A stretch of DNA of 55,164 bases from Clostridiaceae bacterium (lineage in GTDB: Bacteria > Bacillota > Clostridia > Saccharofermentanales > DTU023). Each line of letters opens with the position of its first letter. Position 1 is the first letter of the stretch. The position numbers and the translations under genes were made by a program. Under the pieces are notes generated by a model that saw only the letters and a list, made by a program, of their open reading frames with translations, was not told where the DNA came from and searched no databases. Positions 8,678 to 12,879 of this stretch are shown here, in pieces. The DNA lies in assembly GCA_012519085.1 (NCBI GenBank), contig JAAYQX010000039.1, forward strand, positions 1-55,164, written 5' to 3'.

Positions 8678-8713
8678 ATAAAAACCGCCCGGTCATTTTC
8701 ATTGACCGGGCGG
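8678..8713 (-). terminator. Intrinsic terminator (attenuator) upstream of the TrpX-like operon
   Basis: Minus strand CCGCCCGGTCA-atgaaaa-... -TGACCGGGCGG (11 bp) followed by TTTTTATT. Confidence 0.93.
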
Positions 8714-8817
8714 GTGATAGCTTGATCCCTTCCGGTCTCCCGGAAGGCTGGTTTTTAGCCACCGGGATGCTAGACGTGCGTCTGCATCCCGAGTGAACCC
8801 GACTACAGACGTCGTCT
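8702..8817 (-). promoter_or_regulatory. Multi-hairpin attenuator leader (alternating stems A-E plus terminator)
   Basis: A: 8817-8806/8784-8772; B: 8791-8780/8775-8763; C: 8766-8758/8748-8739; D: 8747-8740/8735-8728 (GAGA loop); E: 8737-8727/8714-8704; each overlaps the next. Confidence 0.85.
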
Positions 8818-8859
8818 CAGGTAGCAAAAAAAGTTGAAGTTGCTGGATCGTTGTCTCAT
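8803..8859 (-). CDS. Attenuator leader peptide MRQRSSNFNFFCYLRRRL
   Basis: SD AGGAG then ATG AGA CAA CGA TCC AGC AAC TTC AAC TTT TTT TGC TAC CTG AGA CGA CGT CTG TAG; lies between promoter and terminator of the ABC operon. Confidence 0.88.
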   Translation of the reverse strand: MRQRSSNFNFFCYLRRRL

Positions 8860-8885
8860 AGGGTTCTCCTCTTGTATTGCCGATT

Positions 8886-8914
8886 ATCGTACATATGCAA
8901 ACAAAAAAGGTCAA
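8886..8914 (-). promoter_or_regulatory. Promoter for the TrpX-like operon leader
   Basis: Minus strand TTGACC (8914-8909), 17 nt spacer, TACGAT (8891-8886). Confidence 0.7.
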
Positions 8915-9059
8915 GTATTATTGAATCGAATCAACGTAATGTATAAAAGTGCACTAAATTTAGAAGGTAATTCAGGTGCAATTACCTATATCAACTATCT
9001 ATAATGATCCAATACTGATAAAATGGCTTCACGCAAAATTGTTCATTTGGAGGATTGTG

Positions 9060-11337: not shown

Positions 11338-12879
11338 TTATTCATTAATGGGCCGCAAGAGTTTCTGGGCATTTTCCATTTCAAGATTAAGAAGATAATC
11401 CTTTATATCTACGCCGCCGCTGAAACCAACCAGATTGCTGTCTTTACCGATAACCCTATGACAAGGAATTATTAAAGGCAGGGGATTGGCAGCACAGGCA
11501 TTGCCAACCGCTCTGGCATAGTTCTGATGGTTCTCAGTTGCCGGTACAACCCTGGCAGCGATCTGCTCATAAGTGGCGGTACTGCCATAGGGGATAGCCA
11601 TAATTTCCTGCCAAACTCGGCGCTGAAATTTAGTCGAGTGTAGTAGTTCATATTGAATTGAAGGTGATGCGACGTTTCCGGATAAATAATTCAGCAAATC
11701 ATTGCCGGCTTGTATTAAATAATCTCGATTTAGCTCGCCGGCATATATTGTCTGATCAGCATTCAATATAATCGGCCTGCCATTATTGTCGGCCAAACCT
11801 AAGTGTTCAGCAGCAGAAAGGAGATCAGAGTCAGTCAGGATTTCGTCCGTACGCCAAAAAGAGATGCCTACCACCTTGTCCTCTGTTGCCAATGCTTTGA
11901 GAACCAAGTAACCAAAAGATCGGAAAGGAATAAAGGCTGTTGCTAAACCTGTGCGATCCGGTCGAAACAAGGTTTTGCAATGGGCCGGAAAATGCTGCCC
12001 GCATCTGGTGCCCAATATCGCTGAGACTTTTTCCGAGTTCACCAGTTCTTGCTCGGAAATGACTTCTAATCTGTAAAACTCAGGATTAATATTAAGAACC
12101 TGATCAATTATTGATTCACAATCAGACTGTGTCAGGGAGTGGGGTGTCTGCCAACTAAGACAGACTAAGTCACTATTCAATACAGGTTGAACTGCCCGTA
12201 CCAAACCGATTACATCGCCCCGGTCCAGTATTGAATAAAGAAGACTGCCACCGTCGGCTTGATTCCAGATCCTAAACAATGAGCGCAGTTGTTTCGCTGT
12301 AGTCGGCAGACCAATCAGACCTAGTTTGGCCAACTGTGAGACATCGCTAAGGACTAATCTGCGTATTGTCAGCTTTCTAATATGCTCATAGTTGATATAG
12401 CGATATCTGAGACCTTTTTCTTCTTGCCAGGGTCCTATATTAGATCGATGCCAATTCTCAGATCCGGTCAGATCAGGGAAGTAGCTGTCGGCAGTAAATT
12501 CTGTATCAATCTCAGTTAAAAGAATCTCATCACAGTAAGGGAGCAATTGCTCATAAACACTTGCCCCCCCAATAATATAAATAGTTTTCTCTGCAAACTG
12601 CAATTTTAATTCCTGTAACAGTGCCAATAATTCTGGCAGGTTGTGAACAATTAAAGCCGGAGGTGCAGAGAAATCTTTATCCGTGGTCAAAATCAGGTTA
12701 AGACGATTTTTTAGGGGCTGTGCAGCGGGAAAAGTAGCAAGGGATTTGCGGCCATAGACCACAATATTGTTGGTAGTAATTGCTTGGAAGCGCTTTAAAT
12801 CGCCCCTGATATGCACCAAAAGGTCGCCCTCAAAGCCAATTCCCCAGTTGCGATCACAAGCTACTACTATTTTCATCAT
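11338..12879 (-). CDS. Fusion: dihydrofolate reductase - middle domain (GNAT-like?) - methylated-DNA--protein cysteine methyltransferase
   Basis: N-term DHFR (IVVACDRNWGIGFEGDLLVHIRGDLKRFQ, YIIGGASVYEQLLPYCDEILLTEI); C-term Ogt (FQRRVWQEIMAIPYGSTATYEQIA...NPLPLIIPCHRVIGKD). Confidence 0.88.
   Translation of the reverse strand: MMKIVVACDRNWGIGFEGDLLVHIRGDLKRFQAITTNNIVVYGRKSLATFPAAQPLKNRLNLILTTDKDFSAPPALIVHNLPELLALLQELKLQFAEKTIYIIGGASVYEQLLPYCDEILLTEIDTEFTADSYFPDLTGSENWHRSNIGPWQEEKGLRYRYINYEHIRKLTIRRLVLSDVSQLAKLGLIGLPTTAKQLRSLFRIWNQADGGSLLYSILDRGDVIGLVRAVQPVLNSDLVCLSWQTPHSLTQSDCESIIDQVLNINPEFYRLEVISEQELVNSEKVSAILGTRCGQHFPAHCKTLFRPDRTGLATAFIPFRSFGYLVLKALATEDKVVGISFWRTDEILTDSDLLSAAEHLGLADNNGRPIILNADQTIYAGELNRDYLIQAGNDLLNYLSGNVASPSIQYELLHSTKFQRRVWQEIMAIPYGSTATYEQIAARVVPATENHQNYARAVGNACAANPLPLIIPCHRVIGKDSNLVGFSGGVDIKDYLLNLEMENAQKLLRPINE

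Follow-up and report, generated by a model that had tools for sequence, protein, structure and literature searches.

A predicted phenylalanine- and tyrosine-sensing relay attenuator upstream of a TrpX-like ABC importer and its likely relatives in Lactobacillales

Introduction

Which signal controls an importer of the TrpX-like family when the leader RNA in front of it encodes a short peptide with phenylalanine and tyrosine codons? This question is raised by a locus in a 55,164-nucleotide stretch of a Clostridiaceae bacterium (assembly GCA_012519085.1, contig JAAYQX010000039.1), which was analysed as a whole and is called the window below. In Bacillota, leader-peptide attenuation is treated as rare and T-boxes are expected. 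A first-pass annotation of the window had read the region as an attenuator in which a ribosome stalls at Phe/Tyr codons.

Results

The importer is encoded on the minus strand by three genes assigned by domain matches: a TrpX-like substrate-binding lipoprotein (PF04392, 8657-7602), an ABC permease (PF02653, 7590-6694) and an ABC ATPase (PF00005, 6710-5940). The neighbouring gene on the opposite side of the leader is a divergent ORF of 349 amino acids on the plus strand, which starts at 8976 and contains an internal ATG near 9059. Since this gene is divergent, the terminator in the leader is not the end of an upstream gene and serves the leader transcript only. Chorismate synthase and prephenate dehydrogenase were not found in the genome of the window by two family searches (the assembly is 92% complete), and both are present in 14 of 14 control genomes. 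The organism therefore probably must import aromatic amino acids. Elsewhere in the window (11338-12879, minus strand), a 513-amino-acid ORF encodes a dihydrofolate reductase (PF00186) fused to an O6-methylguanine-DNA methyltransferase domain (PF01035), and the about 250 residues between the two domains carry no domain assignment.

The whole leader occupies positions 8914-8680 of the minus strand and comprises a promoter, a Shine-Dalgarno sequence, an 18-codon ORF, six overlapping stems and a terminator. The promoter TTGACC-17-TACGAT (8914-8886, with TTGACC at 8914-8909 and TACGAT at 8891-8886), the Shine-Dalgarno sequence AGGAG (8870-8866) and the ORF (8859-8803), which encodes the peptide MRQRSSNFNFFCYLRRRL*, were read from the sequence. 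The stems join seven segments. Stem A (segments 1:2, core CGUCUG 8811-8806 with CAGACG 8784-8779) is the first antitermination stem and was located by the chain search and the ribosome model described below. Stem B (segments 2:3, 8792-8780 with 8775-8762; folding and chain search) is the first termination-side stem. It is followed by stem C (segments 3:4, 8767-8757 with 8749-8738; chain search), stem D (segments 4:5, 8747-8740 with 8735-8728; folding and chain search) and the antiterminator E (segments 5:6, 8737-8727 with 8714-8704; chain search). The last helix is the intrinsic terminator T (segments 6:7, 8713-8703 with 8695-8685; folding and chain search), which is followed by TTTTT and extends to 8680. 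The promoter, the Shine-Dalgarno sequence, the ORF, stems A to E, the terminator and its T run had all been described by the first-pass annotation and are found where it placed them; two further pairings, X and Z, were missing from its list. In the candidate stem X, which was aligned onto the window by the covariance model, the leader codons UUUUU-U-GCUACC (8831-8820) pair with GGUGGC-U-AAAAA (8763-8752). In stem Z, seen in the minimum free energy and no-ribosome structures, the Shine-Dalgarno region GAG-GA-GAACCC (8871-8861) pairs with GGGUUC-A-CUC (8800-8791) past the stop codon. The same pairing can be formed in the related leaders L002 and L003. In the absence of a ribosome, stem Z may prevent stem A from forming or turn off translation of the leader.

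The fold of the leader reaches -84.9 kcal/mol compared with -56.4 kcal/mol in shuffled sequences (z -6.3), and none of 200 shuffles is as good. The chain search looks for the best series of six helices that ends with the terminator and in which each helix shares part of its 3′ strand with the 5′ strand of its successor. Applied to the window leader, it independently recovers the six annotated stems with a score of -129.9, compared with -89.4 (sd 7.3) when the terminator is kept and the rest is shuffled (0/200). The six-stem chain beats all 200 shuffles in 22 of the 31 leaders tested; in L039, L042, L143, L151, L163, L063, L095 and L048 the test is uninformative or weak, with the D hairpin or another stem taken as the terminator. 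The relay of overlapping segments put forward in the annotation, with A, C and E on the antitermination side and B, D and T on the termination side, is supported by this excess over shuffles and by the mutual exclusion of the stems.

Genome searches revealed leaders before the same gene in two genera. The lineage sample is small: five leaders are known (the window, L002, L003, L004 and L005), three of them nearly identical in their stems and providing little covariation of their own. The L005 leader is cut at the contig end, and the comparisons use the four complete leaders. The promoter is kept in L002 (TTGACC-17-TACGAT), L003 (TTGACC-17-TATTAT) and L004 (TTGACA-17-TACGAT), as is the Shine-Dalgarno motif GGAG. 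The small ORF, whose absence from relatives had been named as a refuting observation, is present in every relative with a complete leader, and its Phe/Tyr codons are kept (MRQRSSSFNFFCYLRRRL, MLQFSGSFYFYFCYLRRRL and MTANTRTGYYYFFSFRARS). In L004, stems A, B, C, D (with one mismatch), E and T are rebuilt with different letters, and the chain score is -138.8 compared with -90.5 (sd 7.2; 0/200 shuffles). Cysteine and asparagine, mentioned in the annotation as possible further sensed amino acids, were rejected: asparagine is replaced by serine in L002, and cysteine is kept only within the genus and is missing from L004.

A scan of named genomes revealed similar leaders before related importers in Lactobacillales, for instance in Atopococcus (MLNQLNKTTQLNHFYFSYFRYCL), Schleiferilactobacillus (MRDAAITQLNNRFYYGYFR) and Enterococcus alishanensis (MTLQKHSQLNNQYYYSYFR), and in most of them the six-stem chain exceeds all shuffles. 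The covariance model R1, built from 22 Lactobacillales leaders, matches 203 of 298 Lactobacillales genomes (about two thirds), with up to six matches per genome, and 8 of 391 genomes of Clostridia, the class of the window. The window leader scores 15.7 bits against R1 (E 0.0005 when its leader alone is searched, 0.3 in 160 kb), a match that is weak but lies in the right place and on the right strand; L004 scores 21.4 bits (E 3.6e-5). Judged from these sequence matches and from the importer gene, which falls into the same clade (see the tree below), the window leader likely shares descent with the large Lactobacillales family.

The genes downstream of 101 aligned leaders include 44 aroE genes, two DAHP synthase genes (aroF), one chorismate synthase gene (aroC) and 50 recognised importers, and four are unassigned; the identities of aroE, aroF and aroC rest on a Pfam check of one example each. 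The control of a TrpX-like importer, as annotated for the window, is thus one part of a wider range, since such importers are among the regulated genes and the element also precedes aroE, aroF, aroC and other transporters. In Clostridia (L292-L301), the same leader type is located before NSS-like symporters, a LIVCS-like carrier and ABC permeases resembling that of the window, the transporters being identified by eye from sequence. The regulator therefore precedes unrelated transporter families. In the Lactobacillales peptides, TQLNN is kept ahead of the aromatic run (for example L143 1204-1260), and its ACACAAC may pair with GTGTTG between the Shine-Dalgarno sequence and the start codon.

Several other leaders lie outside this family. 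R2 matches in family f2, genus g8, of the window's order were rejected as relatives, the readable ones being a different leader before DAHP synthase. These (L283, L285 and L286) encode another Phe/Tyr leader peptide (MHSTVFTYAYFYFYFGDSDRSDLCA; MKSEVFTFAYFYFYFGNDSQSGLCA) followed by a terminator and apparently represent a shorter, independent attenuator. Leader ORFs with runs of tyrosine codons also precede TrpX-like binding proteins in L057 (Bacillales UBA3935, MTRLVVNRYYYYYYYFPRRCHEKH) and L048 (Anaerolineaceae, MKKIICVNSYYYYSTNAPGAE); the surrounding sequence differs, and they are probably independent inventions.

Covariation was assessed in the alignment of 101 leaders, which was fitted to X, A and D; B and C were not used in the fitting. 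Stems X and A together are paired in 98.8% of cells; 12 of their 21 pairs show a change on both sides in at least one leader (55 cells versus 8.2 in shuffles). For B and D the values are 92.3%, 12 of 24 pairs and 44 versus 10.8 cells, and for C 94.4%, 4 of 11 pairs and 12 versus 1.7 cells. Controls shifted by one to three columns pair in only 17-61%. RNAalifold found X and A unaided in an unfitted MAFFT alignment of the 22 leaders. The covarying stems that had been proposed as a check of the annotation are thus strong in Lactobacillales, and the relay is rebuilt with other letters there as well as in L004. In stem X of the Lactobacillales, the aromatic codons pair with the 3′ part of segment 3. 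This pairing accounts for the constancy of the Ser/Gly codon (AGC or GGC) within FSYFR and YGYYG. Stem X can be drawn in the window and is weak in the window's own ensemble.

The position of the ribosome was modelled on the assumption that the RNA is covered as far as 12 nt past the first base of the codon in the A site. For the window, stem A is predicted to form with a probability of 0.60-0.99 while the A site is on codons F8-Y13, and the probability is 0.00-0.22 when the A site is at L14 or any later position up to the stop codon, which agrees with the spacing argument of the annotation. Of the 17 leaders modelled, 16 have lost stem A when the ribosome is at the stop codon, and in 16 of the 17 (the exception is L139) its edge lies one to four codons past the last aromatic codon. 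In all 101 leaders, the last aromatic codon is separated by 8-12 nt from the start of segment 1, and the stop codon varies from 6 nt before to 5 nt after the start of segment 1 (up to 11 nt). The constant spacing between aromatic codons and segment 1, with a shifting stop, indicates that the conserved distance is the one that stalling would use. When transcription has reached segment 4, a stalled ribosome is predicted to favour A and C (probability of A 0.51 in the window and 0.55-1.00 elsewhere) and a ribosome at the stop codon B. With no ribosome, X with A is favoured in most Lactobacillales and B in the window. With the ribosome stalled at F10 of the window, A (0.51) and B (0.49) are nearly balanced, B being the more stable of the two at equilibrium as soon as segment 3 has been transcribed. 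The relay would thus need stems that form in the order of their synthesis. In a crude simulation of co-transcriptional folding, in which early helices stay locked, the outcome was inconsistent and the relay logic was not reproduced, and no weight is given to it here.

Among the 101 leaders, those before shikimate genes always contain mixed Phe/Tyr codons. Importers are preceded by mixed leaders as well, but also by leaders with Phe codons only (8) or Tyr codons only (4). E. alishanensis carries several leaders in one genome, with QYYYSYFR, RYYFSYFR and RFFFSFFR, and RWQNWRR before another paralogue. Lacticaseibacillus manihotivorans has leaders with YYYGYYG and FFTGFFG. The window leader is of the Phe/Tyr type without tryptophan codons, as the annotation stated; Trp-coding versions exist on other paralogues. 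These leaders (L063, L095, L091, L108 and L163, with NFFDWQSHVE, TFSWQTWRR, TWQNWRR and RWQNWRR) precede paralogues of the Trp type. A tree of 40 substrate-binding proteins places the 11 Trp-labelled proteins on one side and the 29 Phe/Tyr-labelled ones on the other (support 91/81), and none of 500 shuffles is equally clustered. The binding protein of the window importer falls among the Phe/Tyr-labelled paralogues, not in the Trp-regulated group. T-boxes before TrpX-like importers have, in our own reading of the specifiers, UGG (Trp) in L017, L019, L023, L028 and L029. A UAC (Tyr) specifier is read in L051 (2574-2807) and L059 (2630-2856). The doubt cast earlier on the label "tryptophan transporter" is supported by the position in the tree and by these specifiers, Trp or Tyr, in relatives. 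The family label names tryptophan alone, and the leader codons predict which of Phe, Tyr and Trp an importer carries.

Discussion

We propose, with a probability of about 0.88, that the leader works by ribosome-mediated transcription attenuation, responds to the levels of charged tRNA-Phe and tRNA-Tyr and regulates an ABC importer of aromatic amino acids. The aromatic run characteristic of such a leader ORF, whose translation is predicted, is kept in all leaders. The regulated genes (importers, aroE, aroF, aroC and NSS-like transporters) fit this reading. When Phe or Tyr is short, the ribosome would stall with its A site on codons 8-13 and leave segment 1, the last codons of the ORF, free. Stems A (1:2), C (3:4) and E (5:6) would then form, segment 6 would be consumed, no terminator would arise and the importer would be transcribed. 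With ample charged tRNA, the ribosome would reach the stop codon and cover segment 1, so that B (2:3), D (4:5) and T (6:7) would form and transcription would end. Without translation, the default state is probably off: in Lactobacillales the leader codons would pair with segment 3 in stem X and free segment 4 for D, and in the window an upstream fold including the Shine-Dalgarno region would favour B. The anatomy of the leader and its conservation are evident from the sequences; we infer the stalling, the kinetic ordering of the stems and the effect on transcription from the conserved aromatic run, the modelled switch of stems and the covariation, which agree with the proposal of the annotation that ribosomes stall at Phe/Tyr codons.

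Other explanations account for parts of these data. A chance foldability of a GC-rich intergenic region next to an ordinary terminator would suit the near identity and the scant covariation of three window-lineage leaders, yet it hardly deserves consideration given that no shuffle among 200 matches the chain, that the stems of L004 are rebuilt in other letters and that promoter and ORF are conserved; the chain test and the covariation in Lactobacillales practically refute it. It is somewhat less far-fetched, though improbable, that ribosomes on the leader ORF are stalled by the peptide they are making or by a small molecule, as happens with drug-induced leaders, and not by a shortage of Phe- or Tyr-tRNA. 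A short ORF at a fixed distance from segment 1 would look identical in that case, and TQLNN is conserved at the start of the Lactobacillales peptides. However, conservation concerns the aromatic codons, and the peptides themselves differ (FF.GFFG, YYYGYYG and YYFSYFR, with W.NW in the leaders of Trp-type paralogues), the downstream genes encode importers and the shikimate pathway, and the conserved middle Ser/Gly codon is accounted for by the pairing in X.

The element might also be a trans-acting small RNA ended by a terminator, with regulation of the next gene being secondary, since the Rfam family RF02863 (Enterococcus sRNA_2410) matches the wider family: 8 of 10 loci in one scan and 1 of 10 loci of substrate-binding proteins (SBP) in another. 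In E. faecium, Northern blots have shown this RNA, 195 nt in length, as two transcripts (PMC5593968). Two transcripts are also what premature termination would give, and a terminated leader is the expected product of attenuation. Moreover, the Rfam model begins within the conserved peptide ORF, the element lies directly before aromatic amino-acid genes on the same strand, and mutually exclusive stems that reach the terminator are a requirement of an attenuator. We therefore regard a trans-acting small RNA as very improbable, a little more so than stalling by a peptide or small molecule, and retain attenuation by Phe/Tyr-tRNA supply as the preferred reading.

Beyond the single locus, we consider it fairly probable that these leaders form a class of aromatic relay attenuators that extends across the Bacillota, has been missed or catalogued as sRNA, and precedes unrelated importers and the shikimate operon. 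In this class, the codons (Phe-only, Tyr-only, mixed or Trp) would report the substrate of the paralogue, and the leader codons would double as the default-off strand. Within the Lactobacillales, leader-peptide attenuation appears to be widely used to control the supply of aromatic amino acids.

The mechanism itself is the known, classical ribosome-mediated attenuation. The enterobacterial his, thr, phe and trp attenuators combine a short ORF, in which codons for the regulated amino acid abound, with alternative stems, an intrinsic terminator and a default-off stem that uses the coding region. The leaders described here share all of these features; they differ in a relay of three antitermination and three termination-side stems, compared with one or two in the enterobacterial leaders. 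No Rfam leader family of the enterobacterial kind was matched in Rfam scans of the window and the family loci, and the scan of the window gave nothing above chance, including no match to the T-box (RF00230) and none to RF02863 at the gathering score. A published Phe/Tyr attenuator for these genes in Lactobacillales was not found in the open-access literature, and one may exist in papers behind subscription. Within the open literature searched, neither the Phe/Tyr family and its reach nor the long relay appears to have been described.

T-box leaders of TrpX-like importers, such as the Trp T-box of S. suis trpX (PMC9382623) and those of L017, L019, L023, L028, L029, L051 and L059, likewise sense uncharged tRNA and control the same importer family; unlike the window leader, they bind the tRNA directly. 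His leader peptides reported in some Firmicutes (PMC2965389, PMC9413887) also replace T-boxes, but they contain His codons, precede his and hisS genes and occur in limited lineages. The uORFC-13-1 motif before aroF (PMC8632094) similarly has a Phe codon in a uORF ahead of a shikimate gene and is described as another motif, the distinction resting on its description. RF02863 matches this RNA at aroE, aroF, aroC and one SBP leader, beginning with the final codons of the leader ORF. The Rfam search suggested in the annotation thus gave a divided answer: part of the wider family has an Rfam entry, as an sRNA, and the window itself is unmatched. RF02863 is listed as an sRNA gene without ORF, amino-acid sensing or relay, and it misses the window and 9 of 10 SBP loci scanned. 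As an attenuator leader, an RNA filed in Rfam merely as sRNA would gain a function.
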